From Novosphingobium lentum NBRC 107847 (lineage in GTDB: Bacteria; Pseudomonadota; Alphaproteobacteria; Sphingomonadales; Sphingomonadaceae), in NCBI RefSeq assembly GCF_001590965.1, contig NZ_BCTW01000003.1, positions 1-64,000 on the forward strand: DNA of 64,000 nt. Direction: 5' to 3'. Every line of letters starts with the position of its first letter. The first letter of the stretch is position 1. The notes under the pieces were generated by a model. It was not told where the DNA came from. It ran no database searches and saw nothing but the letters and a program-made list of their open reading frames with translations. A program made the position numbers and the translations under genes. Shown here piece by piece: positions 31,788 through 52,494 of the stretch.

Positions 31788-31820
31788 CGATGGCGCGACC
31801 CATGGCCACTTGCGAACGGA

Positions 31821-32561: not shown

Positions 32562-32647
32562 TGCTGCTGTCCTTCTCCCATCGAGCGCCAGGGTTATGCC
32601 GGGCACTCGCAGCTGTCATGAAACTGCCTCCGGTCGGGCCTCGGGCA

Positions 32648-32665
32648 AAAACAACTGTTCGTTTT
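32648..32665. promoter_or_regulatory. Regulon B operator 1 (membrane-protein operon)
   Basis: AAAACAACTGTTCGTTTT, 16 of 18 positions symmetrical. On the minus strand a TTGACA lies at 32692-32697, giving a promoter that overlaps the operator. It precedes the 32561 gene. Confidence 0.65.
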
Positions 32666-35329: not shown

Positions 35330-35347
35330 AAAACAACTGTTTGTTTT
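35330..35347. promoter_or_regulatory. Regulon B operator 2 (TonB receptor promoter)
   Basis: AAAACAACTGTTTGTTTT, nearly perfect inverted repeat, 45 bases upstream of the receptor start and just downstream of its promoter. Confidence 0.7.
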
Positions 35348-36570: not shown

Positions 36571-36875
36571 GCCGCGCGCACCCGGTCGGGCGTCCACAGT
36601 TTGTCGAGGCATTGCACGACGCGGACCGAGGTCACGCCATCGAGTGGCCCGATTTCATCCGCGATAAAGCGTTGCATCGCGTTGAAGTGGACGCACCCCG
36701 GGTCGGTCAGGCACAGCGTGACCGTGACCGCGCCGCCCTCGTCGATATCCACCGCATCGACCAGACCCATGCCGGCCAGGCTGGTGGGTTTGCGCATCGC
36801 GATGCTGCACGGCTCGGGAATGGAATCGAGCGCGGCATGGATTTGCGCCAGCAGCAGATCGCGCGGGTCCGTCAT
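36567..36875 (-). CDS. Small DUF59/MIP18-like protein
   Basis: A 102-residue protein of the MIP18/PaaD/SufT type: short helix, AVTVTLCLTDPGCVHFNAM with the conserved Cys, then ITSVRV-like strand (here VTSVRVVQCLD). Related proteins assist iron-sulfur assembly. Its start overlaps the amidohydrolase stop and its stop overlaps the CoA-transferase start, both ATGA, so it is translated with them. It may mature the cluster's Rieske oxygenases or ferredoxin, or serve the adjacent amidohydrolase-like protein (inference). Confidence 0.75.
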   Translation of the reverse strand: MTDPRDLLLAQIHAALDSIPEPCSIAMRKPTSLAGMGLVDAVDIDEGGAVTVTLCLTDPGCVHFNAMQRFIADEIGPLDGVTSVRVVQCLDKLWTPDRVRAA

Positions 36876-37933: not shown

Positions 37934-38736
37934 GGTTTGGACTTCCGGTTGTAGACCGGCGCGCGCTTTTCGATTGCGGCGTTCACGCCTTCACGCAGAT
38001 CGTCGCTGTAAGTCAGCGCGGCGACTGCCCAGAAACTGGCGTTCATCGAACCGGCAAGGTCCATGTGCCAGCTTTGGCGCAACTGCTGCTTGGTCGCCTC
38101 AATCGCGAGACGGGGGCGTTCGGCGATGCGGGCGGCAAGCGCCACGGCCGCATCTCCCAGCGCATCGGGTGCGACCACGCTGTTGACCAGCCCGATTGCC
38201 AACGCGCGCTCGGCATCCAGGATATCGCCGGTCAGCGCCATTTCTGCGGCCAGCCCGCTGCCCACCAGCCGGGGCAGGAAATAGGTGCCGCCGTTGCCGG
38301 GGTTGAGCCCCAGCTTGATATAGGTCTCGCCCATCTTGGCGGCGGTCGAGGCGATGCGGATATCGCAGGCGAGCGCGAGGTCCAGCCCGCCCGCCGTGGC
38401 CCCGCCATTGATCGCGGCGACCACCGGCAACCGGCTCGACACCAGCTTTTGCGTGACCGGCCACAACACACGCGCGTTGTAGGGTTCCTGCGCGACAGCG
38501 TGTTCTTCGGCCAGATAGCGGCGGAATTCGATGAGGTCGGCCCCGGCGCAGAACTGCTTGCCCGCGCCGGTCAGCACCAGCACGCGGATGTCCTGGTTCG
38601 CTTCCAGCGCGTTGAGCGCATCGATCAGGTCGGCGGCCATTTCGGGCACGACGCCGTTGCCCCGGTCGGGCCGGTTGAGCGTGATCCGGGCGACGCCGTC
38701 GGCCGGGAAATCGAGCAGGATGGTGTCGTAGGCCAT
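37930..38736 (-). CDS. Enoyl-CoA hydratase (crotonase family)
   Basis: A 268-residue crotonase with FCAGADLIEF and INGGATAGGLDLALACD oxyanion elements and GLNPGNGGTYFLPRLVG at the catalytic loop. ATG at 38736, seven bases after the thiolase stop. The frame is open to 38784 but that overlaps the thiolase gene. It hydrates or isomerises an enoyl-CoA intermediate. Eighth-last to seventh gene logic is not implied; its neighbours on both sides are a thiolase and the amidohydrolase-like gene. Confidence 0.88.
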   Translation of the reverse strand: MAYDTILLDFPADGVARITLNRPDRGNGVVPEMAADLIDALNALEANQDIRVLVLTGAGKQFCAGADLIEFRRYLAEEHAVAQEPYNARVLWPVTQKLVSSRLPVVAAINGGATAGGLDLALACDIRIASTAAKMGETYIKLGLNPGNGGTYFLPRLVGSGLAAEMALTGDILDAERALAIGLVNSVVAPDALGDAAVALAARIAERPRLAIEATKQQLRQSWHMDLAGSMNASFWAVAALTYSDDLREGVNAAIEKRAPVYNRKSKP

Positions 38737-38743
38737 GGCTGCG

Positions 38744-39913
38744 TCAGGCCTTGCGTTCGAGGATGGTGGCGATCGCCAGCGCATAAGCCCCGTCGAGCCA
38801 GCCGCCGCCGTTGACGCTCATCGCCAGCTTCGCGCCTTCGACCTGCCGCGCACCGGCATGGCCGCGCAGTTGCGTGACCAGTTCGACCAGCTGGGCGCAA
38901 CCGGTCGCGCCCAATGCGTGGCCCCGGCTGAGCAGCCCACCGCTGGTGTTGACCGGTGTTGCGCCGCCCAGTTGCGTCACGCCATCACGCACCAGCCCGA
39001 ACCCTTCGCCTTCGCCGCACAACCCGATTTCCTGATACTGCATCAGTTCGGCAGGGGCGGCGGCGTCGTGCAGTTCGAGCATGTCGAAATCCCGGGGTCC
39101 GGCAGAAGCCCAAGCATAAGCCTTGCGCGTGGCGTCGCCAACGGGCGATCCGGCGGCACCCGATGCAATCTGGCAGGCGCGCACGACAATGGCGGGCACG
39201 CCGAGTTCGGCCGCGACCTTTTTCGAACAGACCAGCACGGCGGCTGCGCCGTCGGTCAGCGGCGAACACATCGCCAGCGTCAGCGGCGCCACGATCATGC
39301 GGCCGTTCATGACATCCTCGACCGTCTGCGGTTTGCGCATCTGCGCCAGCGGATTGTCCATCGCATGGCGGCGGTTCTTGACCGCGACGCGCGCGAAATC
39401 GGTCGCGTCGGCGCCATAGCGGTCGAGGTAGCCTTGCGCGACGGCGGCGTAATAATCCATCAGCAGCGAATTGGCGCTGATCGTGCCCGGCTCGACCTCA
39501 CCGATATCCTCGATGTCGGTCGATCCGCGCAGCGCGTTGAACGCGCGGCTGCGGTCGGGATGATGCATCTGTTCGGCGCCCACTGCCAGCGCGACTTCGA
39601 CGCAGCCGCTGGCCACGGCCTCTACCGCAAGGCTGAACGCCGATCCGCCCGAGGCGCAGGCGTTCTCGACATTGATCAGCGGCAGATGGCCCAGCGGATG
39701 GCCACGCAACGCGACCTGCCCGCGGATCATCTCCTGCTGGGTAACGATCCCGGCGATGGCATTGCCGAAATAGATCCGCTCGATCCGGTCCATGGCGATG
39801 CCCGCATCGGCGATGGCGCCTTCGATCGCCTCAAGCGCCATGCTGCGGATGCCGCGACCCGGCTGCGCGCCGAACTGGGTCATCCCGACCCCGGCAATGG
39901 TGACCTGCTTCAT
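38744..39913 (-). CDS. Thiolase-family acyltransferase (SCP2-like)
   Basis: A 389-residue thiolase-fold enzyme with nucleophile Cys86 in NACASGG, HDAAAPAE, and RGHALGATG near the C-terminus. The second catalytic Cys of degradative thiolases is not evident in the last segment (NGGGWLDGAYA), placing it with SCP2/SCPx-like thiolases. It probably cleaves a 3-ketoacyl-CoA. It overlaps the acyl-CoA synthetase stop by ATGA. Confidence 0.87.
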   Translation of the reverse strand: MKQVTIAGVGMTQFGAQPGRGIRSMALEAIEGAIADAGIAMDRIERIYFGNAIAGIVTQQEMIRGQVALRGHPLGHLPLINVENACASGGSAFSLAVEAVASGCVEVALAVGAEQMHHPDRSRAFNALRGSTDIEDIGEVEPGTISANSLLMDYYAAVAQGYLDRYGADATDFARVAVKNRRHAMDNPLAQMRKPQTVEDVMNGRMIVAPLTLAMCSPLTDGAAAVLVCSKKVAAELGVPAIVVRACQIASGAAGSPVGDATRKAYAWASAGPRDFDMLELHDAAAPAELMQYQEIGLCGEGEGFGLVRDGVTQLGGATPVNTSGGLLSRGHALGATGCAQLVELVTQLRGHAGARQVEGAKLAMSVNGGGWLDGAYALAIATILERKA

Positions 39914-41514
39914 ATCGTTGCCACCGGCTTTGCGGCGCTTCGTGCGCCCGATCCGCCGCCGATGCGCCCGTCGTGGCCCTGCCAGTAGGCATCGCGCACT
40001 TCGCGGCGCAGAACTTTGCCATAGCCGCTGACCGGCAGCGCATCGACGAAATCCACCGCCTTGGGCTTTTTGTAGCCCGCCAGATGTTCGCCGCAGAAGG
40101 CGATCACGTCGGGCGCGGTCAGGCCTGAGCCGGGCCGGGCGACGACGACGGCATGAACCGCCTCGCCCCAGTAATCGTCAGGGATGCCGAACACGACGCA
40201 TTCGGCGATTTGGGGATGAAGGATGAGCACTTCCTCGACTTCGCGCGGATAAATGTTGTTGCCGCCGGAAATCACCATGTCCTTCGCGCGGTCGAGCAGG
40301 AACAGAAAGCCCTGGTCGTCGAAGAAGCCGATGTCGCCGGTGTGCAGCCAGCCGCCGCGCAGCGCTTCGGCAGTGGCTTCGGGGTTGTTCCAGTAGCCCG
40401 GCATGACCACGTCGCCGCGGGTCACCACTTCGCCGGGCTGGCCGGGGGGGAGGGGCTGGTCGTTCTGGTCGACGCAATGCGCCTCGACGTCGGTACGCAC
40501 TTGTCCGGCCGAGCCGATGCGCGGATCGTCCGCCGCAAGCAGCGCGGTGTGGGCCGCCGCGCTCAGCCCGGTGATGGTGATCGGCGCTTCGCCCTGACCG
40601 TAAAGCTGGACGAAGATCGGCCCGAACGCGGCCATCGCCTGCTTCAGCTGATCGACATAGATCGGCGCGCCGCCATAGCAGATCGCCTTCAGCGAGGAGA
40701 GATCGTGTCGTCCGGGCACGAAGTCTTCCAGCAGCTTGATGATCTGCGTCGGCGCCATGAACGCGACATGCGATACTTTCAGCTGCTCGACCGTGGCGAA
40801 CAGGCTTTCCGGATCGAAGCTGGGCGAATCGTAGATCGCGTTGGTCGCGCCGCGCGCCACGGCGGGCAGGGCGACGATCCCGCTGCCGTGCGACATCGGC
40901 GCACAATGCAGCACCATTTCGCCCGGCTGGATATTATGCAGGTCCGCCAGATAGTTCATGATCACGCGCGCAACCATGCGGTGGTTCCACATCGCGCCCT
41001 TGGGCTTGCCGGTGGTGCCCGATGTGTAGAACAGCCAGCACAAGTCTTCGGGTGCGGCATCGTCGGCGCAGGGCAGGGCATGGGCCGGATCGAGCAGCGC
41101 TTCGAAACCGAGCGCACCCTCGACCGGATCGGTGCAGACGCGATGCGCAAGGCCACCGAACAGCCCCGCGTTGGCGCGGATGCCTTCATCGTACTCGGCC
41201 CCGTGGACCAGCAATTTCGCGCCGGCATTCTCGATGATCCACGCCATTTCGCGCGGATGCAGCCTTGCGTTGACCGGCACCACGATCAACCCGGCGGCAA
41301 AGCAGCCGTAGATCACCTCGAGGATGCGCGGCGAATTGGCGAGGCAGAACGCCACCCGGTCCCCCGGCGCGCAGCCCAGCGCGCGCAAGTTGCCGCCCAC
41401 CGCCAGCGCGCGGTCATGGAACTCACGATAGGTCCGGCGTTCCTCGCCGTGCAGCAACGCCAGCCCATCGGGGCGCTGGCGGGCCGATTTTTCGAGGAAA
41501 GCGAACGTGTTCAT
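39910..41514 (-). CDS. Acyl-CoA synthetase / acid-CoA ligase
   Basis: A 534-residue ANL enzyme with FYTSGTTGKPKGAMWNH, LYGQGEAP, WLHTGDIGFFD and DRAKDMVISGGNNIYP motifs; the catalytic Lys is in GYGKVLRREV. ATG at 41514 chosen; the extra N-terminal stretch from 41589 is not ANL-like and overlaps the DUF35 gene. It is one of three CoA ligases in the window and lies inside the MaoC-to-CoA-transferase operon, so it activates an acid fed to that module. Confidence 0.9.
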   Translation of the reverse strand: MNTFAFLEKSARQRPDGLALLHGEERRTYREFHDRALAVGGNLRALGCAPGDRVAFCLANSPRILEVIYGCFAAGLIVVPVNARLHPREMAWIIENAGAKLLVHGAEYDEGIRANAGLFGGLAHRVCTDPVEGALGFEALLDPAHALPCADDAAPEDLCWLFYTSGTTGKPKGAMWNHRMVARVIMNYLADLHNIQPGEMVLHCAPMSHGSGIVALPAVARGATNAIYDSPSFDPESLFATVEQLKVSHVAFMAPTQIIKLLEDFVPGRHDLSSLKAICYGGAPIYVDQLKQAMAAFGPIFVQLYGQGEAPITITGLSAAAHTALLAADDPRIGSAGQVRTDVEAHCVDQNDQPLPPGQPGEVVTRGDVVMPGYWNNPEATAEALRGGWLHTGDIGFFDDQGFLFLLDRAKDMVISGGNNIYPREVEEVLILHPQIAECVVFGIPDDYWGEAVHAVVVARPGSGLTAPDVIAFCGEHLAGYKKPKAVDFVDALPVSGYGKVLRREVRDAYWQGHDGRIGGGSGARSAAKPVATI

Positions 41515-41524
41515 GCCGGTACGG

Positions 41525-41929
41525 TCAATCGGCTGCGCGGCGGAAGATGGCGCAAGGCCGCCGTTGGGCCTCTGCGGCGCCCGGTGCAACGAATTCGACC
41601 CGGTCGTCGCAACTGTACGCGGACCAGTCGTCCGGCGCGCTGGCCTCGAGACGGGCGAGAAGCTGCACGCCTTCGTCCAGCTTCACCACGCCGATGGCAT
41701 AGGGCAGGTCGCCGTCGAACCCTTCGGGCGCGCCCTGACGCAACACGCAGAAGCTGTGCAGCGTGCCTTTGCCGCTGGATTTGGCCCAGCCAAGGTCATC
41801 GGACTGGCAGTGCGGACAGGCATAGCGCGGCCACATGTTGGGCTTGCCGCACGAGTTGCAGTTCTGGATCAGCAGTTCGCCCTGGCCGAGCCCGGCGCGG
41901 AATTCGCTGACGATGCGGGGTGTTTTCAT
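41525..41929 (-). CDS. DUF35 OB-fold/zinc-ribbon protein
   Basis: A 134-residue protein with the zinc ribbon CNSCGKPNMWPRYACPHC (residues 24-41) followed by an OB fold (about 45-125). DUF35 proteins pair with thiolase-like Ltp2 aldolases, as in ChsH2-Ltp2 of steroid side-chain degradation, where this domain holds the aldolase active. The gene starts three bases after the thiolase-like gene stop, which fits that pairing. Confidence 0.9.
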   Translation of the reverse strand: MKTPRIVSEFRAGLGQGELLIQNCNSCGKPNMWPRYACPHCQSDDLGWAKSSGKGTLHSFCVLRQGAPEGFDGDLPYAIGVVKLDEGVQLLARLEASAPDDWSAYSCDDRVEFVAPGAAEAQRRPCAIFRRAAD

Positions 41930-41932: not shown

Positions 41933-43159
41933 TCAGGCCCCCAGCTTGGTGCGTTCGAGCAGCAGGATTTGCGCATCCATGTAGCTGCCACCCGACCCGC
42001 CGATGATGGCGCGCTCGCAATCCTCGACCTGCCGCTTCGACGGTGCGCGGTGGAGCAGCTGGCGGATGCCTTCGACCAGCAGCGCGGTGCCGCCGCCGAC
42101 GCCGGTGTGCCCTGCCGAAAGCAGTCCGCCGTTGGTGTTCATCGGCAGCTTGCCGCCGGGATCGCCGTTACCGGCCGCAAACCAGCGCGCGCCTTCGCCC
42201 TTTTCGGCGATGCCGATGCCTTCAAGCGCGATCGTGGTGACAGCGGCGTAGCTGTCATAGATTTCTGCGATGTGGGCATCGTGGGGACCCCAGCCGGACT
42301 GGTTCCACGCGCGTTCCGCCGCCAGCGGCCAGCCGAGCACGGCCTGGTCGGCTTCCTGGCTGAGGCAATAATGGCTAACGCAGCCGCCCGATCCGGCGAC
42401 GCGCACGCCGTGGCTGATCCCGCGACGCCGCGCGTTGCCTGCGCTGGTCATCACGAAGGCGCAGGCGCCATCGGCCATCGGCGGGCATTCGTAGCTGTGC
42501 AGCGGATCGGCGACCATGCGCGAGGCGAGGATCTGCTCGACCGCCAGCGGCTTGGTGTAGAACATCGCGTTTTCGTTGAGGTTGGCCCAGTTGCGCAAGG
42601 TGACGCAGACCGAAGCCATTTCCGCCGGCGTGCTGCCCGATGCATGCATGTAGCGCCGCGTGATCATCGCGCCGATCGCGTTGAACTGGATCCCGGTGGG
42701 CAGTTCCCATTCGCCGGGGATGCCGTTCTTGGACAGCATCGTGATCATCTCGTTGAGATCGGCCGAACCCCAGCGTTCGCACTGCAACACCAGCACGTTC
42801 TGCGCGTGGCCCGTGGCGATCAGGCCATGCGCCGCGCGTACCGCGTTATCGCTGGTCGATCCGCCCGAATGGACCATGTAGCTCGATTTGGCCGAGCCGT
42901 GGATGCCCAGTTCCTCGACCATCCGCGAGAACACCAGATCGGCCTGGTCCGCCGCGCCATGCAGGTTCGGGATCAGCAGGATGGTGTCGATGTCGCGCGG
43001 GACCATGCCGGCGTCGTTCAACGCCAGGATCGCGACGCGCGTCAGCGCTTCGATGAAGCCGCGGTCGGGGAACTTGCCGGTCGGGATTTCCCCGATGCCG
43101 ACGAACACCGGATCGTTGTCCGCGTTGGGCGTGACGTGAAGCTGCCAGTTCTCGGCCAT
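41933..43159 (-). CDS. Thiolase-like protein, probable Ltp2-type retro-aldolase
   Basis: A 408-residue thiolase-fold protein lacking the nucleophilic cysteine: the usual NxCxSG loop reads SSYMVHSGGSTS (about 92-103). The AEIYDSYAAVTTIALEGIGIAEKGEGA block and NTNGGLLSAGHTGVGG are kept and carry the Tyr residues used by Ltp2-like aldolases. With MaoC four bases upstream and DUF35 three bases downstream, the trio matches the hydratase-aldolase-DUF35 arrangement of steroid side-chain cleavage: hydrate an enoyl-CoA at a branched carbon, then retro-aldol cleavage. Substrate here is unknown. Confidence 0.85.
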   Translation of the reverse strand: MAENWQLHVTPNADNDPVFVGIGEIPTGKFPDRGFIEALTRVAILALNDAGMVPRDIDTILLIPNLHGAADQADLVFSRMVEELGIHGSAKSSYMVHSGGSTSDNAVRAAHGLIATGHAQNVLVLQCERWGSADLNEMITMLSKNGIPGEWELPTGIQFNAIGAMITRRYMHASGSTPAEMASVCVTLRNWANLNENAMFYTKPLAVEQILASRMVADPLHSYECPPMADGACAFVMTSAGNARRRGISHGVRVAGSGGCVSHYCLSQEADQAVLGWPLAAERAWNQSGWGPHDAHIAEIYDSYAAVTTIALEGIGIAEKGEGARWFAAGNGDPGGKLPMNTNGGLLSAGHTGVGGGTALLVEGIRQLLHRAPSKRQVEDCERAIIGGSGGSYMDAQILLLERTKLGA

Positions 43160-43163: not shown

Positions 43164-43640
43164 TCAGCCCTCCATCCGCCGCCGCTTGGCGAGCATCGTC
43201 TGCAAGAAGGTCATAACTTCGTCTCCCGACTGGTTGCGGACCGAATACTCGACCGCCAGCGTTCCATATTTTGGCCCCGTCGCGTCCACCGAGGCGACCG
43301 TCGCGACGACATGCAGCGTGTCGCCCGCAAACACCGGCTTGGTTGCCTTCAGCCCGGTGATCTCGACCAGCGCGACGATGGCGTCGCCGTAAAATCCGCT
43401 CAGCCCGACGAGCCCGACCGCCAGCGAGAAGGTCAGCGGACCATGCGCGATGCGCTGGCCAAAGCGGTTGCCGGCCATGAACGCGGCGTCGGTGTGGAGC
43501 TGGTAGTGATCGCCGGTCAGTCCGGCGAATGTCGTGATGTCGCCAATATCGACCGTGCGGCCGCGCGTGGTCATCACATCGCCGGATTCGAAATCCTCGA
43601 AGCATTTATCCTGCGGATCGGAAAAGGTACGCGCTGTCAT
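43164..43640 (-). CDS. MaoC-like (R)-specific enoyl-CoA hydratase
   Basis: A 158-residue hot-dog-fold hydratase. The catalytic loop reads FAGLTGDHYQLHTD, with Asp and His kept and the usual Asn-Pro replaced by Tyr-Gln; RIAHGPLTFSLAVGL follows. It is the first gene of the long operon and has an excellent promoter with an operator at the -10 box. Role: hydration of an enoyl-CoA ahead of the Ltp2-like aldolase. Confidence 0.88.
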   Translation of the reverse strand: MTARTFSDPQDKCFEDFESGDVMTTRGRTVDIGDITTFAGLTGDHYQLHTDAAFMAGNRFGQRIAHGPLTFSLAVGLVGLSGFYGDAIVALVEITGLKATKPVFAGDTLHVVATVASVDATGPKYGTLAVEYSVRNQSGDEVMTFLQTMLAKRRRMEG

Positions 43641-43668: not shown

Positions 43669-43686
43669 AAAACAAGCGTTTGTTTT
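43669..43686. promoter_or_regulatory. Regulon B operator 3 (MaoC operon)
   Basis: AAAACAAGCGTTTGTTTT, symmetrical except at one position pair or none depending on the centre (GC central dinucleotide). It overlaps the -10 box of the leftward promoter. Confidence 0.75.
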
Positions 43687-43743: not shown

Positions 43744-44340
43744 CTAGGCGAGAACCCCGCCCAGCAGCGTTCCGGCCATCAGTTCGCCAACCTCGTGAGG
43801 CTTCAGCTGGCCGTCGGGTGAAAGCCATTCGGGCGTCCAGTTGAGCGCGCCGAGGATGCTGAGCACCGCGATCCGCCGGTTGAGATCGGCGCGGAACTGT
43901 CCGGTCGCCATGCCCTGCTCGATCACCGAGATGAAACAGCGTTCGTATTCGCGCCGCCGCTCGATCGCCAGCGGCAGGTTGTCCGGTCCCAGGAACCGCC
44001 ACTGGTGGAACACCACCAGCGATCGTTCGGGATTGTCCGCGACCACTTCGACATGCGCGACGATCATCGCGCGCAACCGCTCGATCGGAGAGCCGGTGGC
44101 CCCGACCATCGGTTCGACCGCAGCGATGAAGCGGTGAATCCCGTCGCTGACGATATCGACCAGCAGGGCTTCCTTGCTGGCGATGTGCGCATAAAGGCTG
44201 CCGGGCAGCACGCCCACCGCGTTGGCGATGTCGCGCATCGAGGTGCCGCTGAAACCCTGCTTGCCGAACAGGCGCACCGCCACATCGCGAATGGCATCGC
44301 GCGGTCCCGATGGTACTTCGACAGGCTTGGCTTCGTTCAT
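43744..44340 (-). CDS. TetR-family regulator (regulon B)
   Basis: A 198-residue TetR regulator; the helix-turn-helix (about 15-60) contains GFSGTSMRDIANAVGVLPGSLYAHIASKEALL. The C-terminal half resembles the KstR2/acyl-CoA-responsive kind, judged only by general appearance. It starts 39 bases after the acyl-CoA dehydrogenase stop and is read from the promoter at 45574-45615, which holds an operator, so it is probably autoregulated. Six copies of the same 18-bp palindrome mark its likely regulon. A CoA-ester ligand is probable. Confidence 0.87.
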   Translation of the reverse strand: MNEAKPVEVPSGPRDAIRDVAVRLFGKQGFSGTSMRDIANAVGVLPGSLYAHIASKEALLVDIVSDGIHRFIAAVEPMVGATGSPIERLRAMIVAHVEVVADNPERSLVVFHQWRFLGPDNLPLAIERRREYERCFISVIEQGMATGQFRADLNRRIAVLSILGALNWTPEWLSPDGQLKPHEVGELMAGTLLGGVLA

Positions 44341-44379: not shown

Positions 44380-45516
44380 TCACAGGCCCATCGATTTTGC
44401 AATGATACTTCGCAGGATTTCGTTGGTTCCGCCACCGACCATGCCGTGCTTGGCCTCGCGGAAATAGCGTTCCATGTGATATTCGGGAAGCTGCGCATAG
44501 CCGCCCAGCGCCTGCATGCCGTTGAACGCGATCTGGAACAGCGTCTTGGCCGCGAACAGCTTGGCCTTGGCGACATCGCCGGCAGCCTTTTCCCCGCGCG
44601 ACAGCTTGTCCGCCGCATAATACACCATCAGCCTTGCGGCGGAGAGTTCGGTCTCGTCGTCGGCCATGCGGTGCTTGAGCACCTGGAACTGCGACAGCTT
44701 CTTTCCGAACGCCTCGCGGTCGGTCAGGTAACGCTTGGTGTCATCCAGCGCGGTGCGCGCGTTGCCGACTTGCGAGGCGGCGATGCTCAGCCGTTCCAGG
44801 TCGAGATGTTCGCCGATGTACTGCCAGCCTTTGCCCACTTCGCCCAGGATGGCGCTTTTGGGAATGCGCAAGTCGTCCATGAAAAACTCGGTCGTGCCCA
44901 GGCTCTTGCGCACCAGGGTGTTCATCTTCTTGATGTGCAGGCCGGGCGTATCGTTGGGCACCAGGAACAGGCTGAACCCGCCGTAGCGGTCCTGGCTGGT
45001 GCGGGCGAGGATGGCGATGGTCGTGTCTGGCAAATGCGCGCCCGAGCACCACACCTTGTTGCCGTTCAACACCCACTCGTCACCTTCGAGCCGCGCGGTC
45101 GAGCGACCACCGGCCGCGTCCGAACCCGATTGCGGTTCGCTGATCGAGATCGAGAACTTGGATTCGCCGCGCAGGAACGGCGGGATATAGCGCTCCTGCT
45201 GTTCGGGCGTGCCGTGGCGACAAATGTTGGTGACGGTGAACATCGATGTCATGATGCAGGCGGCGGTATCGAGGCTGTACTTGCCGATGCCTTCGCAGAA
45301 GATCGCGAACATCACCGGATCGGTCGCCATGCCGCCCAGTTCCTCGGGAATGAGCAGGCCCAGCCAGCCCATTTCGCCCATCTTGCGGTAGACGTCCTCG
45401 GGAAATTCGCGCGAAAGATCGTGTTCGAGCGTATAATCCTGCCCGACTTCATTGACCATGAAGTTCTGGACGACATCGTTCCACATGCGCTGTTCGTCGT
45501 TGAAACCGAAATCCAT
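44380..45516 (-). CDS. Acyl-CoA dehydrogenase
   Basis: A 378-residue flavoprotein of the ACAD family: FSISISEPQSGSDAAGG (substrate/FAD loop), WVLNGNKVWCSGAH, and the C-terminal GGTNEILRSIIAKSMGL. ATG at 45516 has GAGG upstream; the extra 10 codons are not ACAD-like. It introduces the enoyl double bond that the MaoC or crotonase enzymes then hydrate. It is co-transcribed with the TetR gene, divergent from an acyl-CoA synthetase. Confidence 0.92.
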   Translation of the reverse strand: MDFGFNDEQRMWNDVVQNFMVNEVGQDYTLEHDLSREFPEDVYRKMGEMGWLGLLIPEELGGMATDPVMFAIFCEGIGKYSLDTAACIMTSMFTVTNICRHGTPEQQERYIPPFLRGESKFSISISEPQSGSDAAGGRSTARLEGDEWVLNGNKVWCSGAHLPDTTIAILARTSQDRYGGFSLFLVPNDTPGLHIKKMNTLVRKSLGTTEFFMDDLRIPKSAILGEVGKGWQYIGEHLDLERLSIAASQVGNARTALDDTKRYLTDREAFGKKLSQFQVLKHRMADDETELSAARLMVYYAADKLSRGEKAAGDVAKAKLFAAKTLFQIAFNGMQALGGYAQLPEYHMERYFREAKHGMVGGGTNEILRSIIAKSMGL

Positions 45517-45565
45517 CGCCTGCCTCGATCGTGTGTATCCCTGCAAACCGCCGCGAAGCAGTGGA

Positions 45566-45594
45566 TTGCCCCTAAAACAAACGTTCGTTATGAT
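45566..45594 (+). promoter_or_regulatory. Promoter of the acyl-CoA synthetase at 45633
   Basis: TTGCCC, 17-base spacer, TATGAT. The regulon B operator fills the spacer. On the other strand TTGACT at 45608-45613 offers the -35 of the divergent dehydrogenase promoter, so one operator could control both directions. Confidence 0.5.
45574..45591. promoter_or_regulatory. Regulon B operator 4 (divergent dehydrogenase/synthetase promoters)
   Basis: AAAACAAACGTTCGTTAT, the least symmetrical copy of the six, lying between divergent genes. Confidence 0.6.
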
Positions 45595-45632: not shown

Positions 45633-47354
45633 ATGCACGCAGCCGCGCAACGTCGCGCCGATCTGGCAACGCGCTTTCCCGTATGGGAATCGTTGACCAT
45701 CAGCGGCGCGCTCGATCGCGCTGTCGCGACATATGCCGAACGTCCGCTGGTCATTACAGAATCGGGACAGTGGAGCTATCGCAATATGGCCGACTGGTCG
45801 CGGCGGATCGCGTCGGGGATGATCGCGATCGGGCTGGCGCCGGGCGATCACGTTGCGCTCGATCTGGCCAACTATCCCGAATTCGTCGCGTTGAAATTCG
45901 CGATAGCGCGTGCGGGCTGCGTCTGCATTCCGTGCAACTTCATGCTGCGCGGAAGCGAGCTGCGCTACGTGCTCGAACAGTCCGATGCGAAGATGCTGGT
46001 CACCATGGACCGTTTCCGGGGGCATGATTATCTCGCCGACCTCGTGCGGCCTGCCGCGCTGGCGCATGTCGTGGCGTTTCCTACGGGTGAGGGCGCGTAC
46101 AGCGGCAGCGCCAACCTCACGCTCGCCGCGCTTGAAGCCGCCGCCACGCCCGCCAGCGATGCGGAACTTCTCCGGCGTGAGTCGGTGGCCGATCCCGCTG
46201 GCCTGTCCGACATCATCTACACCTCGGGCACCACGGGCCGCTCAAAGGGTGTGATGCTGACGCACGATATGGTGATGCGCGCGGCGTTCTCGTCCGCAGT
46301 GACGCGCGCGTTCGAGGATGGGCGGCGCATCCAGTTTGCGCTGCCGATGTACCACGTGTTCGGCTATGTCGAATGCCTGATCGCGACGATGTTCGTCGGC
46401 GGTGCGATCCTGCCGCAGCTGGTGTTCGATGCCGCCGCGATGCTCGATCTGGCCGAAACCGCCGGGGCCAGCGAAATGGTCTGCGTGCCGATGATGACGC
46501 ACAAGCTGATCGACCTGGCCCGCACGCGCGGGTTCGATTCCAGCCGCTTTGTGTGCATGTTCAACAGCGGCGGCACCAACGTTCCCTCGGTGTGGGACGA
46601 TATCGTGGCCGTGCTCGGCGCGCGCGAAACGGTCACCGCTTACGGCATGACCGAAACCACCGCATCGACCACCTGCACTTTGCCCGAGGATGGGCGCGAA
46701 CGCCTGCTGGCAAGCAACGGCGCGCCCAAGCTGCCGAGCGTGGCCGGTGACCCGGCGCTGGGCGGGCGCGTGGCGGTCTATCGCGTGATCAACCCGGTTT
46801 CGGGTGAGGAGATGCCGCCCGGCAACGAGGGCGAACTGGTGGTTCGCGGACCGATCGTGACCAAAGGCTACTACCGCAAGCCCGAGGAAACCGCCGCCGC
46901 CTTCACCTCCGACGGTTGGCTGCGCACCGGCGATGTGGGCCGGCTTTCCCCGGACGGCTATCTTTCGCTGACCGGGCGGATCAAGGAAAGCTATCGCTGT
47001 AACGGCGAGATGGTGATGCCGCGCGAGATCGAGGAACTGTTCGACGATCACCCGCACGTGGCGCAGGCGCTGGTCGTGGGCATTCCCGATCCGCGTGTCG
47101 GCGAGGCGGGTTGCCTGTGCATCGTGCCCCGGGACGCAGTGGATGCCGATCCCGCAGCGCTGCTCGCGCTCTGCCGGGAAAAGCTGGCGCGGTTCAAGGT
47201 TCCCCGGCATGTCGTGGTGCTGTCACCAGAGGAGATTCCGCTGACGATCACCGGCAGGCCGCAGAAGTTCAAGCTTGCCACGCTTGCCGCCCAACGTGTG
47301 GCGACAAAGACCGCTTCCGCTCAAGAAACAACCCTGACAGGAGAGACCAGATGA
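45633..47354 (+). CDS. Acyl-CoA synthetase / acid-CoA ligase
   Basis: A 573-residue ANL enzyme: IIYTSGTTGRSKGVMLTH, AYGMTETTAS, WLRTGDVGRLS, and GRIKESYRCNGEMVMP at the hinge, with Lys in RPQKFKL near the end. Note the hinge reads KESYRCNGE in place of the common KDxIxxGG. It activates a carboxylic acid intermediate. ATG at 45633 follows GAGGAG. A 95-residue ABM-like gene overlaps its stop (ATGA). Confidence 0.9.
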   Translation: MHAAAQRRADLATRFPVWESLTISGALDRAVATYAERPLVITESGQWSYRNMADWSRRIASGMIAIGLAPGDHVALDLANYPEFVALKFAIARAGCVCIPCNFMLRGSELRYVLEQSDAKMLVTMDRFRGHDYLADLVRPAALAHVVAFPTGEGAYSGSANLTLAALEAAATPASDAELLRRESVADPAGLSDIIYTSGTTGRSKGVMLTHDMVMRAAFSSAVTRAFEDGRRIQFALPMYHVFGYVECLIATMFVGGAILPQLVFDAAAMLDLAETAGASEMVCVPMMTHKLIDLARTRGFDSSRFVCMFNSGGTNVPSVWDDIVAVLGARETVTAYGMTETTASTTCTLPEDGRERLLASNGAPKLPSVAGDPALGGRVAVYRVINPVSGEEMPPGNEGELVVRGPIVTKGYYRKPEETAAAFTSDGWLRTGDVGRLSPDGYLSLTGRIKESYRCNGEMVMPREIEELFDDHPHVAQALVVGIPDPRVGEAGCLCIVPRDAVDADPAALLALCREKLARFKVPRHVVVLSPEEIPLTITGRPQKFKLATLAAQRVATKTASAQETTLTGETR

Positions 47355-47638
47355 TCCTCGAACGCGCCGAAATCAACGTCAAGGACGGCCAGGAAGCGGC
47401 ATTTGCCAGCGCCATGGATACGCGCGGGCTGGCGATCCTGCGTGCGGCGGCAGGGTGTCATTCGGCCGTGCTGGGGCGCGGCGTCGAAAACCCCGGCAAG
47501 TTCATCCTGCTGCTCGAATGGGATTCGGTCGACGCGCATGTTGCGCTGACCAAGACGCCCGCGTTCGACGAATTCAAGGCGCTGGTCGGCCCGTTCTTCG
47601 GCGGACCGTCGAACATGGAACACTTCGATATGGGGTGA
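47351..47638 (+). CDS. Antibiotic-biosynthesis-monooxygenase (ABM) fold protein
   Basis: A 95-residue dimeric alpha+beta-barrel protein: ILERAEINVKDGQEAAFASA start, a central FILLLEWDSVDAHVA strand and HFDMG end are typical of ABM domains. Members oxidise small aromatics or act as stress or isomerase proteins; catalysis cannot be assigned. Start ATG overlaps the synthetase stop, so it is co-translated. Confidence 0.83.
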   Translation: MILERAEINVKDGQEAAFASAMDTRGLAILRAAAGCHSAVLGRGVENPGKFILLLEWDSVDAHVALTKTPAFDEFKALVGPFFGGPSNMEHFDMG

Positions 47639-47649
47639 TGGCAGCGGAG

Positions 47650-47678
47650 CGGCAGGGGCTTCAGTTCGGCCCCTGCCG
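47650..47678. terminator. Bidirectional terminator between ABM and ferredoxin genes
   Basis: CGGCAGGGGC and GCCCCTGCCG pair perfectly over 10 bp with a nine-base loop, 12 bases after one stop and 11 before the other of the convergent genes. Confidence 0.65.
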
Positions 47679-47688
47679 GCCTTGCGGC

Positions 47689-47889
47689 CTATTCCTCGAC
47701 GATCGTGATCGCGCGTTCCGGGCAGGATTTCATGCCCAGCAGCGCGGTCTTTTCCTCGCCCGCCGGAACCTCGATTTCGCTGCCGCGATCGACGTTGTAA
47801 CCGTCGTCGTCCAGCCGGAACACGTTGGGCGCGTACTTGGCACAGCGGCCATGGCCGGTGCAGTTTTCGTCGTCGATTTTCATGCGCAT
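47689..47889 (-). CDS. P450-type ferredoxin (3Fe-4S or 4Fe-4S)
   Basis: A 66-residue ferredoxin with CTGHGRC at residues 10-16 and a late Cys in KSCPERAI near residue 56. The second Cys of a 4Fe-4S set is replaced by His, the CxxHGxC pattern common in P450 partner ferredoxins of the 3Fe-4S type. It is last in the P450 / hydrolase / ferredoxin operon and should deliver electrons to the P450 at 48701. Its own reductase is not adjacent. Confidence 0.9.
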   Translation of the reverse strand: MRMKIDDENCTGHGRCAKYAPNVFRLDDDGYNVDRGSEIEVPAGEEKTALLGMKSCPERAITIVEE

Positions 47890-47919
47890 CGTTTTCGTCC
47901 CTCTCCGATTTTCGGCCGG

Positions 47920-48696
47920 TTAGCCCTTCAGACGCGACAGCAGATCCACCGCCGCCAGCGCTTCCAGCCCGAGGCCGAGGCTGAGGCCTTCGTCCATCAG
48001 TCGCTTGTATTTCTGCGTCAACGCGACCCGGGCATAGCGCAACGCAAGGTCGGTCTTGCCCGCGAACATGTGCGCGATCTCCAGCGCGCGGCCCAGCACG
48101 TCACCCGCCGGATGCACTTCGCCGACCACGCCGTGCGTCAAGGCTTCCGCCGCCGTCAGTTCCTGATTCATCAGCAGGAAATAGCGCCCCCGGTTGGGGC
48201 CCAGCACATGCGTCCACACCACATGCGCGCCGTCGCCCGGCACGATCCCGCCCACGAAGTGCGGGGCATCCTGGAAGATCGTGGTGTCCGCCGCGATCAC
48301 GATGTCGGACATCACCGGGATTTCCGGATGGATGCGCGCCGGCCCGTTGATCGCCGCGATCACCGGCACTTCGATGTCGAGCAGGTTGCCCAGCAGTTTG
48401 CGCCCGTCATAGAACGTGTGGTCCCATTCGGCGGGGGTATTCAGGCTGAAGCTGGCAAAGTCGATCACGTCGCACCACACATCGCCCGTGCCGGTCAGCA
48501 CCACGACGCGGTTTTCGCGGTCGGCGCCGATATCGGCAAAGCAATAGCCCAGTTCCTCGTGGCTTTCCTCGCTCCACACGAACGGGCCGCCGCCGGTGTG
48601 GAACCGCACCAGCAGGACGCCGTCGTCGTGGCGTTCGAACACGATGTTGCGGTAGCGATCCTTGTAATCCGCAAGGCGCGGGGCCAGCCGGCTCAT
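47920..48696 (-). CDS. Crotonase-fold beta-diketone hydrolase, 6-oxocamphor-hydrolase-like
   Basis: A 258-residue crotonase-fold protein whose sequence closely follows 6-oxocamphor hydrolase (CamK) of Rhodococcus as I remember it: DRENxVVxLTGTG, EVPVIAAINGP, HPEIPVMSDIV, GIVPGDGAHVVW and GPNRGRYFLL. The residues assigned to catalysis there (His122, His145, Asp154, Glu244) have exact counterparts His123, His146, Asp155 and Glu245. That enzyme cleaves a bicyclic beta-diketone by a retro-Claisen reaction, without CoA. Start MSRLAP at 48696, five bases after the P450 stop. It points to a bicyclic or polycyclic diketone intermediate in this pathway. Confidence 0.85.
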   Translation of the reverse strand: MSRLAPRLADYKDRYRNIVFERHDDGVLLVRFHTGGGPFVWSEESHEELGYCFADIGADRENRVVVLTGTGDVWCDVIDFASFSLNTPAEWDHTFYDGRKLLGNLLDIEVPVIAAINGPARIHPEIPVMSDIVIAADTTIFQDAPHFVGGIVPGDGAHVVWTHVLGPNRGRYFLLMNQELTAAEALTHGVVGEVHPAGDVLGRALEIAHMFAGKTDLALRYARVALTQKYKRLMDEGLSLGLGLEALAAVDLLSRLKG

Positions 48697-48700
48697 GCGA

Positions 48701-49942
48701 TCACCATACCAGTTCGAGGCTGCGCATCGAGCGCAGGAACCCGGTGACATAGGTTGGCTCGGTCCCGGGCTTGACGCTGAATTCGGGAATGCGCTTCAGC
48801 CATTCCTCCAGCGTCGCGGTCAGTTCCACGCGCGCCAGGTTTGAGCCGATGCAGCGATGCGGGCCGACGCCGAACGTCGAATGCGGGATGCCTTCGCGGC
48901 GCACGTCGATCTTTTCCGGTTCGTCCATGTGACGCGGATCGCGCGAGGCGGCGGCGTACGTGAGCATCACGAACTCGCCTTCGGGGATCGTCGTGCCCGA
49001 GACTTCGACGTCGCGGGTGCAGGTACGGCCCAGCGCCACCACCGGCGGAAAGAACCGCGCATATTCCTCGATCGCGTTTTCGATCAGCGAGGGATCGTCG
49101 AGCAGCAACTGCCGCTGGTCGGGATGCATGGCAAGATGGTGGATCGCCGAGGCCATGACGAATGTCGTCGTGGCAATCCCGCCGAAGGTCAGGTCGACGA
49201 GGATGCTGACTTTATGCGCCCACGGCGATTCGGTGCCGCCTTCATACGTCACGCCGGCCAGGATCGTGTCGATCAGATCGCCGCGCGACGGCTGCGTCTT
49301 GCGCCATGCGAGATGCGTTTCGAGATAGGCGAACACTTCGCCGAAGTACTTGCCCCGGACTTCGGGATCGGGCGCGAACGTGCCTTCTTCCACGCCGTTC
49401 ACCAGCATCGCCAGATCGTCGATCGGCAGGCCCAGGATGTTCTTGAAGAACGCCCAGCCGGGCAGCAGCGCGCCGAATTCGGAGATGAATTCGCATTCCG
49501 CGCGATCGATGAACTTGTCGATCAGCGCGTTGACGTCGTCGCGCACCGGCTGTTCGTAACCGGCCACCGTCCTAGGGCTGAGGTGCGGGTTGAGCACGTG
49601 GCGCCACTTGGTATGGATCGGCGGATCCGATTCCTCGGGCATCAGGTAGGGCAGGCCTTCGGGCCGGTTGGGCATGTAACCCTTGGCCGAACTGAACGTG
49701 CGCCAGTCCTGCGCCGCGCGCCGCACGTCGTCCTGCGTGTTGATGAGGTAATACCCCCGGCCGACCCTGGAATGGACCACGGGGCACTTGCGCACCATGT
49801 AGTTCAGCGTCTCGTCGAACTTGTCGTTGAAGGCAGGATCGTCGAGATCGAAATCGTTGACCAGATCGCGGCCGAAGCGCGCGATCATCTCATCGTGCGA
49901 CGGGGCTTCAAACACCTCGGCCGACGGGGCATCCTCATTCAT
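48701..49942 (-). CDS. Cytochrome P450 with altered I-helix
   Basis: A 413-residue bacterial P450. The haem loop FGVGPHRCIG carries Cys364. In the I-helix the oxygen-activation motif reads FGGIATTT: Thr258 is kept but the acidic residue before it is Ala257. It heads the operon with the beta-diketone hydrolase and ferredoxin, so it probably hydroxylates the ring at the carbon later oxidised to the second ketone. ATG at 49942 has GAGGA upstream and lies 31 bases from a regulon B operator. Confidence 0.93.
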   Translation of the reverse strand: MNEDAPSAEVFEAPSHDEMIARFGRDLVNDFDLDDPAFNDKFDETLNYMVRKCPVVHSRVGRGYYLINTQDDVRRAAQDWRTFSSAKGYMPNRPEGLPYLMPEESDPPIHTKWRHVLNPHLSPRTVAGYEQPVRDDVNALIDKFIDRAECEFISEFGALLPGWAFFKNILGLPIDDLAMLVNGVEEGTFAPDPEVRGKYFGEVFAYLETHLAWRKTQPSRGDLIDTILAGVTYEGGTESPWAHKVSILVDLTFGGIATTTFVMASAIHHLAMHPDQRQLLLDDPSLIENAIEEYARFFPPVVALGRTCTRDVEVSGTTIPEGEFVMLTYAAASRDPRHMDEPEKIDVRREGIPHSTFGVGPHRCIGSNLARVELTATLEEWLKRIPEFSVKPGTEPTYVTGFLRSMRSLELVW

Positions 49943-49973: not shown

Positions 49974-49991
49974 AAAACAATCATTTGTTTT
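49974..49991. promoter_or_regulatory. Regulon B operator 5 (P450/Rieske divergent region)
   Basis: AAAACAATCATTTGTTTT between the divergent P450 and Rieske genes. It covers the -10 of the leftward promoter. Confidence 0.65.
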
Positions 49992-50092: not shown

Positions 50093-51250
50093 ATGATGCA
50101 GGCCCCACCAACCGCACAAGCAGCTGCCGACGCAACTGCCACAACAACCGGCAGCCGGGATTCGATTGAACAATATCCCCTCCCGCCGAGCACCGTCGAT
50201 TCGCGATCGTATACCGATCCGGCGCAGTATCGCCGCGAAATCGAGAAGGTGTTCCATTCGGCCTGGCTGCGCGCGTGCCCGGCATCCGACATCGCCAATC
50301 CGGGCGACTGGTCGGTGTTCAGCGAGCTTGACCAGTCGATCGTCATCGCCCGGCAGGACGATGGCAGTGTGCTGGCGTGGCACAACGTGTGCCAGCATCG
50401 CGGCGCGCGGCTGGTCGCCGGCGAATCCGGCCATTGCGAGAGCGGGCGGTTCACCTGCCCGTGGCACGGCTTCATCTACGACCTGACCGGCAAGCTGCGG
50501 TTCGCGCCGATGAAGACCGCGTTCGATCCCGATCGCATCGCCGCCTTGCGCACGCCGCCGGTGCGGGCCGAGGAATACGGCGGGTTCGTGTGGCTGTGCC
50601 TGTCATCCGACACCAAGGACCTCAAGACCTACCTGGGCGACATCGGCACCGAGCTGGACTGGTTCGGGCTTGAGACGTTCGACGTGCGCTATCGCTTCGA
50701 TCTGGTGCTCGACGCCAACTGGAAAGTGGTGGTCGATGCGTTCAACGAGACGTGGCACGTGCCGTTCACGCACCAGGCGACGCTGTCCGAGATCGTGCAG
50801 TGGGGCAAGGCGCGGCTGCGCATCTGCGATCCGCACAGCTGGATGACGATTCCCGTCAAAGGCCTGACCGACCGCCATCCCGACGATGCCGATCACCGCG
50901 CCTCGCACATCACGCATTACCTTGCGTTTCCCAACACCATCTACAGCAACTTTCCCACGCACCTGCAAACCTGGACGATGTGGCCGGCCGGACCGGGCAA
51001 GACCCATTTCGTGGCCTATGGCATGGTCGGCCCGTGCCCCGAAGGCATCAGCGAAGAAAAGTGGGTGCGGCAGAACGATCGTGATTGGCAGAACTTCCAG
51101 GACGTCGCGTCGGAAGATTGCAACATCATCAACGGCTGGGGCACCGTCGCGCATTCGCTGGGGCAGGGCGAATACCTGTTCAACACCGCCGAGGGCCGGC
51201 TCACCGCGTTCCATCGCGAGATCGGGCGCCGCACAGCCGCAGGCGCATGA
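50093..51250 (+). CDS. Rieske-type oxygenase
   Basis: A 385-residue Rieske non-haem iron oxygenase. Rieske ligands CQHRG (about 103) and CPWHGF; mononuclear iron site in VDAFNETWHVPFTH, with the two His kept and Glu at the bridging position usually occupied by Asp. Two ATG codons in tandem start it. It likely works with the reductase at 24990. No small subunit is encoded. It could perform hydroxylation or O-demethylation-like chemistry on the pathway's ring system. The thioesterase gene overlaps its stop. Confidence 0.9.
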   Translation: MMQAPPTAQAAADATATTTGSRDSIEQYPLPPSTVDSRSYTDPAQYRREIEKVFHSAWLRACPASDIANPGDWSVFSELDQSIVIARQDDGSVLAWHNVCQHRGARLVAGESGHCESGRFTCPWHGFIYDLTGKLRFAPMKTAFDPDRIAALRTPPVRAEEYGGFVWLCLSSDTKDLKTYLGDIGTELDWFGLETFDVRYRFDLVLDANWKVVVDAFNETWHVPFTHQATLSEIVQWGKARLRICDPHSWMTIPVKGLTDRHPDDADHRASHITHYLAFPNTIYSNFPTHLQTWTMWPAGPGKTHFVAYGMVGPCPEGISEEKWVRQNDRDWQNFQDVASEDCNIINGWGTVAHSLGQGEYLFNTAEGRLTAFHREIGRRTAAGA

Positions 51251-51675: not shown

Positions 51676-52422
51676 TCAGGCGGCGGTCATCCCGCCGTCG
51701 ATCACGTGTTCCATCCCGGTGATGAACGAGGATTCGTCCGACGCCAGGAACATCACCAGATTCGACACTTCGCTGGGATCGGCCAGTCGCTTGAGCGGAA
51801 TCATCGACAGCGCCTCGCCACCTTCCTCGTCGGTTGCGGCAGCCATCATCGGCGTGCGGATGTAGCCGGGGTGCACTGAATTGCAGCGTACGTTGTTGGG
51901 GCCGTATTCGATCGCGACCTGCTTGGTCATCCCACGTACCGCGAACTTGCTGGCGACATAGGCCAGGTTGGGCGACCCGTAGACCGCGACCATGCCCGCG
52001 ATCGAAGAGATGTTGACGATCGATCCGCCGCCTGCCCGGATCATGCCCGGCAACACTGCCTGCATGCCCAGGAACACGCCGAGCTGGTTGATGTCGCACA
52101 CCGTCTGGAAATCGGCCTGCGCGAGTTCGGTGGTCGGCGCGATCTTGCCGATGATGCCGGCATTGTTGACCAGCACGGTCACCGTGCCGAACTTCGCTTC
52201 GGCCTTGGCCAGAACGTCGGCCCATTGCGCGGCATCGGCGACGTCCTGCTTCACGAAGATCGCATTCTCGCCCAGGCTGTCGGCCAGCTTGGTGCCTGCC
52301 GTATCGTTGACGTCGGTCAGGATGACCTTGGCGCCTTCGGCCACGAACGCCTTGGCATGCGCCTCGCCCATGCCCTGCGATGCACCTGTGATGATCGCAA
52401 CTTTTCCTTCGAGCCTACCCAT
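51676..52422 (-). CDS. SDR-family oxidoreductase
   Basis: A 248-residue classical SDR: TGASQGMG, NNAG, catalytic Ser in NISSIAG, YVASK as the YxxxK pair, and C-terminal VIDGGMTA. The frame opens at 52527 only because the operator palindrome is readable; the ATG at 52422 with AGAGGA upstream is the natural start. Probably oxidises a hydroxyl made by the P450 to the ketone needed by the beta-diketone hydrolase (inference). Confidence 0.9.
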   Translation of the reverse strand: MGRLEGKVAIITGASQGMGEAHAKAFVAEGAKVILTDVNDTAGTKLADSLGENAIFVKQDVADAAQWADVLAKAEAKFGTVTVLVNNAGIIGKIAPTTELAQADFQTVCDINQLGVFLGMQAVLPGMIRAGGGSIVNISSIAGMVAVYGSPNLAYVASKFAVRGMTKQVAIEYGPNNVRCNSVHPGYIRTPMMAAATDEEGGEALSMIPLKRLADPSEVSNLVMFLASDESSFITGMEHVIDGGMTAA

Positions 52423-52476: not shown

Positions 52477-52494
52477 AAAACAAGTGTTTGTTTT
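52477..52494. promoter_or_regulatory. Regulon B operator 6 (SDR promoter)
   Basis: AAAACAAGTGTTTGTTTT, 55 bases upstream of the SDR start. A TATAAA on the minus strand lies immediately upstream of it, acting as -10. Confidence 0.7.

Follow-up and report, generated by a model that had tools for sequence, protein, structure and literature searches.

Studies of 6-oxocamphor hydrolase (OCH) have dealt with it as an isolated biocatalyst; His122, His145, Asp154 and Glu244 have catalytic roles, and the 6-oxocamphor route of Rhodococcus consists of a hydroxylation, an oxidation and a hydrolysis; P450camr from Rhodococcus reportedly performs a stereospecific 6-endo-hydroxylation of (1R)-(+)-camphor. 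The OCH of the solved structures 1o8u and 1szo (the record title of the latter describes OCH bound to natural product) presumably comes from Rhodococcus sp. NCIMB 9784, and, to our knowledge, the fate of its product in Rhodococcus is not settled. According to PMC4097962, the camABCDEFG route of Pseudomonas putida also starts with P450 hydroxylation and dehydrogenation to a diketone and later activates a cyclopentene acetic acid with coenzyme A (CoA), while both rings are opened by Baeyer-Villiger-type monooxygenases. Here, these systems are compared with an operon of Novosphingobium lentum NBRC 107847 that lies in a stretch of 64,000 nucleotides (positions 1 to 64,000 of contig NZ_BCTW01000003.1; the window) and encodes a cytochrome P450, an OCH homologue and a ferredoxin. 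The pathway predicted for the window shares with the P. putida route the P450 step, the dehydrogenation to a diketone and the later CoA activation but has a predicted hydrolase for the first ring and a predicted aldolase for chain shortening.

The operon forms the opening part of a regulon that occurs in two phyla. It probably encodes the first steps in the breakdown of a bicyclic ketone, with camphor or a close analogue as the likeliest substrate; a retro-aldol cleavage that would be under TetR control is predicted further downstream. The first-pass annotation of this DNA, made from the letters alone, had described the three genes as one operon, and their order and coordinates (47689-49942, minus strand) are confirmed, with gaps of only 4 bases between the P450 stop codon and the OCH ATG and 30 bases between the OCH stop codon and the ferredoxin ATG. 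The Pfam assignments given here and below come from a scan of 50 of the 55 gene models of the window (52 plus 3 made by hand; g01, g04, g06, g08 and g09 were left out). The operon and its downstream flank comprise the following features:

48701-49942, minus strand: cytochrome P450, predicted bicyclic-ketone hydroxylase (PF00067, E 7.2e-22; heme motif FGVGPHRCIG)
47920-48696, minus strand: OCH homologue, predicted beta-diketone hydrolase (59.4% identity to 1o8u, four catalytic residues, tree, structure model)
47689-47889, minus strand: ferredoxin, predicted electron donor of the P450 (PF13459, Fer4_15, E 7.5e-15; best solved chain 4id8)
47648-47681, no strand: GC-rich hairpin between the convergent ferredoxin and ABM-domain genes (fold of 47631-47692, -31.6 kcal/mol)

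The ferredoxin motif contains three Cys residues plus a His (CTGHGRC...CP). The hairpin, which lacks a T run, may mark where the operon ends; it is absent from the output of the terminator scan. A sigma-70 scan predicted no promoters.

The central protein is a member of the OCH clade by alignment, tree and structure model. Its likely start is the ATG at 48696, which fits the OCH alignment and yields the residue numbering of the first-pass annotation; the listed open reading frame (ORF) begins 18 codons upstream, at 48750, within the P450 gene. The Pfam match is to the ECH_1 family (E 3.9e-25). The comparison with Protein Data Bank sequences puts OCH 1o8u first (E 1.1e-92, 314 bits), followed by the Anabaena diketone hydrolase (ABDH; 259 bits), and the best chain beyond these two enzymes, a 3-hydroxypropionyl-CoA dehydratase, scores 60 bits. 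Of 251 columns aligned with 1o8u, 149 are identical; identity is 54.8% with the Rhodococcus sp. 008 OCH and 49.4% with ABDH. All four residues that the first-pass annotation had associated with OCH (His123, His146, Asp155 and Glu245) occur at the positions of OCH His122, His145, Asp154 and Glu244. In a tree of 50 rows, the sister group of the two Rhodococcus OCHs (1o8u and locus L067) consists of the window protein plus 12 further rows from sphingomonads, and the resulting 15-row OCH clade has a support of 99/94. Several loci were left out before the tree was built: L022, since it is the window; L014 (presumed twin of L023), L016 (of L024), L025 (of L019) and L035 (of L048), the first three of these pairs sharing an identical 200-base stretch; and the partial matches L045, L046 and L047. 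The AlphaFold2 model of the protein (predicted local distance difference test score, 93.5) has the OCH fold, with 1o8u and 1szo as its top matches at a root mean square deviation (rmsd) of 0.8 to 0.9 Å and a template modeling score, normalized by query length, of 0.93 to 0.95. Trp40 and Phe82, which we take to be pocket residues of OCH, are conserved in all 15 window-clade locus rows (12 distinct loci) and in L067; of the rows farther away, both are kept in L031 and L032 only.

The window protein thus resembles the NCIMB 9784 enzyme in sequence identity, catalytic residues, clade and model (rmsd 0.9 Å); it differs in coming from another phylum, in being encoded between a P450 and a ferredoxin and in having a function that is predicted from sequence. 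ABDH (2j5g, 2j5s) is likewise a crotonase-fold diketone hydrolase, but it belongs to a clade of its own and has Phe and Leu at the places of Trp40 and Phe82. An Anabaena-type (cyanobacterial) identity was rejected for the window protein, as ABDH falls into a different tree clade. A further OCH homologue (48% identity) is encoded at positions 10001-12565 of L020, a contig labelled as a Klebsiella pneumoniae metagenome-assembled genome, next to a Baeyer-Villiger monooxygenase (BVMO) that is 45% like the one in the window; the species label may be a binning error.

The operon shares a palindrome, AAACAA-N4-TTGTTT, with other promoters of the window. Allowing up to 2 mismatches, it occurs 7 times in the window versus 0.41 expected, a number that was reached in none of 100 shuffles. 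With at most one mismatch, it is found at six places across the 4.4-Mb genome, five of which, including all four exact copies, are in the cluster; the reversed control pattern is found at two. One of the seven window matches, at 43329, falls within the MaoC gene and is probably due to chance. The other six and the gene for the predicted regulator are as follows:

49975-49990, no strand: operator AAACAAATGATTGTTT, exact, in the divergent P450/Rieske promoter
52478-52493, no strand: operator upstream of the short-chain dehydrogenase/reductase (SDR) gene, exact
43670-43685, no strand: operator upstream of the MaoC-aldolase-DUF35-ligase operon, exact
35331-35346, no strand: operator ahead of the likely TonB receptor start, exact
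32649-32664, no strand: operator ahead of g24, which has no Pfam match, and the COX3-like g23, 1 mismatch
45575-45590, no strand: operator between the acyl-CoA dehydrogenase (ACAD) gene and the divergent ligase gene g37, 2 mismatches
43744-44340, minus strand: TetR regulator, predicted repressor of the operator (TetR_C_24, E 1.2e-33; DNA-binding segment conserved with the Rhodococcus TetR)

The exact copies upstream of the SDR gene and in the P450 promoter bear out the link to the regulon B SDR that the first-pass annotation had drawn. Among the solved chains, the TetR protein matches KstR2 (4w97, E 3.6e-23), and an unnamed TetR chain, 3dcf, scores slightly higher. KstR2 regulators recognize a CAAG-type palindrome. 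The window TetR is likely the regulator that acts at AAACAA-N4-TTGTTT, a predicted pairing. The COX3-like protein and its partner without a Pfam match (31121-32606) also lie under an operator, the one with 1 mismatch.

Operator and gene order were followed through the relatives of the window. A scan of genome contigs with the OCH sequence yielded 13 loci, 11 of them 75 to 83% identical, and among 397 genomes from the family, 26 had a match, which reached an identity of at least 68% in 5, the window's own genome included. The window clade contains 12 other loci (L009-L019 and L026, copies counted once), a sample that was found via OCH. The P450, OCH and ferredoxin genes are side by side in 8 of these 12 (L009-L015 and L017); L010 comes from Novosphingobium colocasiae KCTC 32255. 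A Rieske oxygenase gene is divergent beside OCH, with no adjacent P450, in L016, L018 and L026; neither type of oxygenase adjoins OCH in L019; and the window and L009 have both. In this OCH-found sample, OCH is the constant part of the locus and the oxygenase is the variable part. The Rieske and P450 enzymes may be mutual substitutes or may act on separate substrates. In two other genomes, G152 (C144:7004, L058) and G088 (C1:1945297, L059), OCH also has no adjacent P450, and a related (55 to 56%) SDR-P450-ferredoxin unit without the operator is found elsewhere. The sequence AAACAAATGATTGTTT is present in 8 of 9 P450 promoters (those of the window and the eight loci; L012 is the exception), 26 to 27 bases past a TTGAC box and 47 to 50 bases ahead of the ATG; the box was spotted by eye and the spacing was then measured. 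Ten of the 12 loci have an operator with at most one mismatch ahead of P450 or OCH, and at the ACAD/ligase promoter the corresponding site has 0 or 1 mismatch in several loci, including L009, L018 and L019.

The genes that share these promoters, or that accompany them in the window, are as follows:

51676-52422, minus strand: SDR, candidate hydroxy-ketone dehydrogenase (adh_short_C2, E 2.1e-65; start chosen by eye, listed ORF from 52527)
50093-51250, plus strand: Rieske oxygenase alpha subunit, possible alternative or additional oxygenase of the regulon (PF00848 and PF00355)
45633-47354, plus strand: second acyl-CoA ligase, followed by the ABM-domain gene at 47351-47638 (kept beside OCH in L009, L018, L019 and L026)
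44380-45546, minus strand: ACAD (Pfam; 65.6% identity to the gene beside OCH in Rhodococcus sp. 008)
43164-43640, minus strand: MaoC hydratase (Pfam; 53.5% to Rhodococcus sp. 008)
41933-43159, minus strand: thiolase-fold protein, predicted retro-aldolase (YDSY motif, no nucleophilic Cys; 63.0% to Rhodococcus sp. 008)
41525-41929, minus strand: DUF35/ChsH2-type aldolase partner (OB_ChsH2_C and zf-ChsH2; 43.9% to Rhodococcus sp. 008)
39910-41589, minus strand: acyl-CoA ligase (37.3% to the ligase beside OCH in Rhodococcus sp. 008)
38744-39913, minus strand: thiolase-family protein (49.6% to Rhodococcus sp. 008)
37930-38784, minus strand: second crotonase (GGLD...GETY) in which both hydratase glutamates are missing (58.8% to Rhodococcus sp. 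008)
32819-35284, minus strand: TonB-dependent receptor, probable uptake protein (PF00593, E 3.7e-31; start chosen by eye)

Plasmid pR8L1 of Rhodococcus sp. 008 (NZ_CP015203.1) ranked first among 72,556 plasmid records for the OCH (54.8%), aldolase (64.8%) and P450 (60.4%) sequences. Within approximately 15 kb, it encodes OCH, an acyl-CoA ligase, an ACAD-MaoC-aldolase-zinc ribbon-crotonase series, an SDR-P450-ferredoxin unit, a TetR regulator and a thiolase, that is, counterparts of the window's P450, ferredoxin, SDR, OCH, ACAD, MaoC, aldolase, DUF35 protein, crotonase, thiolase and TetR. In addition to the values listed above, global identities between the window and this plasmid are 60.7% for the P450, 47.7% for the ferredoxin, 39.9% for TetR and 58.9 and 44.5% for the window SDR against two candidate Rhodococcus SDRs; the DNA-binding segment of TetR (AVGxLPGSLYAHIASKE) is nearly identical in both. 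The arrangement differs in that the Rhodococcus OCH gene is divergent from the ACAD operon, the P450 and ferredoxin genes come after the SDR gene, and no Rieske gene is annotated in the 18.7-kb stretch. The same operator (up to 2 mismatches) is present in 4 copies versus 0.09 expected, all of them intergenic: one between the thiolase and TetR genes, one upstream of SDR-P450-ferredoxin and two in the ACAD/OCH promoter. Because both the regulator and the operator are conserved together with the same genes, there is strong evidence for one pathway in the two phyla; either lineage may have been the donor.

The MaoC-aldolase-DUF35-ligase operon and the ACAD gene share the regulon of OCH, a point absent from the first-pass annotation, and give the ring-opening genes a predicted downstream route. 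In the same 397 genomes, the aldolase is matched at E 1e-120 or better in 4, all of which belong to the 5 whose OCH reaches 68% identity; in the fifth, G070, the matching contig (L019) ends after the TetR gene. As a control, 17 of the 25 more distant OCH matches were inspected with approximately 7 kb on each side: these flanks contained no match to the aldolase, MaoC, DUF35 or TetR proteins at E 1e-10 and no operator with 0 or 1 mismatch (one with 2), and a P450-like match (30 to 31%) was seen in just 2. Past the aldolase operon, the window encodes a CoA-transferase III, a DUF59/FeS-assembly-type protein and an amidohydrolase (35401-37933); these genes are not beside the aldolase operon in L011-L015 and L017, and L009 ends before that point.

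In the thiolase-fold protein encoded at 41933, Gly replaces the thiolase nucleophile in an alignment with CtSal (9MYR), within a stretch, HSGGSTS, that is also found in 10 relatives; the YDSY motif and the missing nucleophilic Cys recur in 10 of 10 relatives examined. The nucleophilic Cys expected of an SCP2 thiolase is thus absent. The protein displays features of the steroid side-chain retro-aldolases Sal and Ltp2, namely, the catalytic Tyr of a YD-x-Y/F motif and a DUF35 partner encoded next door, and the Gly and YDSY features support a retro-aldol step. According to PMC12329534, the motif reads YDCY in CtSal and YDHF in TcLtp2, and these enzymes share with the window protein the thiolase fold, the lack of a nucleophilic Cys and the DUF35 and MaoC partners; the window protein differs from them in its YDSY, in a His at the place of CtSal Gln352 and in the small cyclopentane substrate predicted for it. 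The second crotonase, at 37930, lacks both glutamates of enoyl-CoA hydratases, at what we take to be the corresponding positions, and carries GGLD and GETY in their stead; this holds for the window and 8 of 8 relatives examined, and the Rhodococcus protein also has these motifs.

Gene order, homology, the tree, the catalytic residues, the shared operators and the Rhodococcus gene set are the ground on which the following reactions are proposed. The P450, fed by the ferredoxin, would hydroxylate the carbon across the bridgehead from the ketone, and an SDR of the same regulon would oxidize the hydroxy-ketone to a bicyclic 1,3-diketone. The OCH homologue would then add water and cut a C-C bond of the diketone in a CoA-free retro-Claisen reaction, giving a cyclopentanone acetic acid of the campholinic acid type. 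A ligase would make its CoA ester, ACAD would introduce an alpha,beta double bond, MaoC would hydrate the enoyl-CoA to a tertiary alcohol, and the thiolase-fold aldolase with its DUF35 partner would release acetyl-CoA by a retro-aldol reaction, leaving a cyclopentane-1,3-dione. Starting from camphor, this product would be 4,4,5-trimethylcyclopentane-1,3-dione, again a beta-diketone and ready for a second opening, for which the crotonase at 37930 is a weak candidate. The KstR2-like TetR would repress all of these units via AAACAA-N4-TTGTTT. The hydroxylate-oxidize-cleave chemistry put forward in the first-pass annotation is supported: it matches the Rhodococcus 6-oxocamphor scheme, and Rhodococcus sp. 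008 has the same gene set and operator.

The nearest solved chain to the P450 is 4dxy (179 bits), presumably CYP101D2 like 3nv5, and all CYP101 chains score similarly (163 to 179 bits). Identity to CYP101D5 (8gtl) is 116 of 345 aligned residues, or 33.6%, which is under the 40% that naming convention sets for CYP101 membership. Since the window P450 has no residue matching the camphor-binding Tyr of the CYP101D-type chains, which we take to correspond to Tyr96 of P450cam, camphor binding in the P450cam manner is not shown for the predicted enzyme. Its I-helix, GGIATTT, has no acid before the Thr, the usual P450 I-helix having an acid-alcohol pair; the acid place is occupied by Ala or Ser in 14 of 14 related P450s aligned and by Glu in the unrelated g14. 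Oxygen activation in this acid-less family may be different.

Several observations weigh against the proposed pathway or its camphor version. The window P450 has Pro at the camphor-binding Tyr place and Tyr one residue later (alignment to 3nv5; Phe in Rhodococcus sp. 008). OCH is without an adjacent P450 in 4 of the 12 window-clade loci, the operator is absent ahead of P450 in L012 and ahead of OCH in L019, and L010 has no aldolase block inside its 10-kb flanks. In the comparison with Rhodococcus sp. 008, the ligase match is weak (37.3%), two SDRs compete for the second step, and orthology stands on best matches and shared order, with tree placement for OCH; further, we know of no report of growth of this strain on camphor and of no protein of the OCH clade with known activity besides the NCIMB 9784 enzyme. 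Finally, the predicted aldolase has Ser in place of CtSal Cys304. In PMC12329534, Cys304 is the second acid of Sal, with Tyr344 in that role in Ltp2, and the C304S mutant of CtSal is dead. The window protein has a His (GHTG) at the place of CtSal Gln352, by hand-matched places, and at the second-acid place, Tyr344, of Ltp2; because of this His at the Gln352 place, the acid may differ in this aldolase.

Camphor remains the first choice of substrate, at somewhat below an even chance, followed by another bicyclic terpenoid ketone. The alternative that the same enzymes serve a substrate other than camphor, either a different bicyclic ketone of terpenoid type or one ring within a larger terpenoid or steroid, again via hydrolysis of a 1,3-diketone, is rather unlikely but has specific points in its favor: the P450 pocket residue is unlike that of the CYP101D-type enzymes and unlike between the window and Rhodococcus; the aldolase, the DUF35 protein and the KstR2-like regulator resemble steroid side-chain machinery; and the Rieske oxygenase gene sits in the shared promoter region and, in three loci, is beside OCH with no P450 there. 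It is opposed by the sister position of the window clade to the OCH of the camphor pathway, with Trp40 and Phe82 conserved, and by the lack of recognizable KshA/KstD-type steroid-ring genes among the 50 of 55 window models scanned with Pfam, the rest of the genome not having been searched for them. It is highly improbable that the 47920 protein resembles OCH by chance and is a CoA-dependent crotonase of the ordinary type (enoyl-CoA hydratase or isomerase): it does belong to ECH_1 and to a regulon rich in CoA enzymes, but the bit scores (314 versus 60), the tree and the fold place it with OCH and not with ordinary enoyl-CoA hydratases, and among the 25 NCBIfam models listed, of 60 matched, none came near its cutoff (best, 95.5 versus 292 bits).

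With bicyclic-ketone catabolism retained as the preferred reading, a more far-reaching version can be formulated, in which bornane (camphor) would be fully mineralized through two beta-diketone openings joined by a steroid-type retro-aldol step, the second opening being due to the crotonase at 37930 or to OCH itself, and the whole unit would have moved between Actinomycetota and sphingomonads together with its repressor and operator. This version is doubtful.

The wider context that the first-pass annotation had drawn on, with aldolase, Rieske and BVMO genes, holds in part: the aldolase operon is in the regulon and the Rieske gene is at the shared promoter region, but the BVMO promoter contains no operator copy in the window scan with up to 2 mismatches, so the BVMO is not shown to belong to the regulon. 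Identification of this BVMO (29178) as an OTEMO-type camphor enzyme was rejected, its score being 499 bits with cyclohexanone monooxygenase versus 378 bits with OTEMO. The BVMO gene belongs to a second catabolic set (16724-30830) that encodes an aldehyde dehydrogenase, another P450, another TetR_C_24 regulator, a ligase, an SDR and a crotonase. The promoters at 21725, 28985 and 29134 appear to have a GCGAG-type palindrome in common; its supposed form on the BVMO side, GCGAG-N6-CTCGC, counted at up to 2 mismatches, is at chance level (130 found versus 132 expected).

The suggestion that this cluster represents an undescribed terpenoid-like pathway also calls for a division. The opening step is known biochemistry, and the OCH homologue adds one more member to a family already described; novelty may lie in the downstream genes. 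In searches of open-access literature, no listed paper dealt with a sphingomonad OCH, with genes acting after OCH or with this variant of camphor catabolism, the regulon and its predicted downstream route; a paper in a subscription journal is possible. The two-phylum regulon offers a candidate enzyme for each of the later steps, along with a regulator and an operator for finding more copies. Judging from the predicted reactions, the pathway would require less oxygen than the Pseudomonas camphor pathway with its Baeyer-Villiger steps. The sphingomonad OCHs and P450s form a set for stereoselective chemistry, and if the substrate proves to be another terpenoid, the operon would still serve as an assay for that terpenoid.

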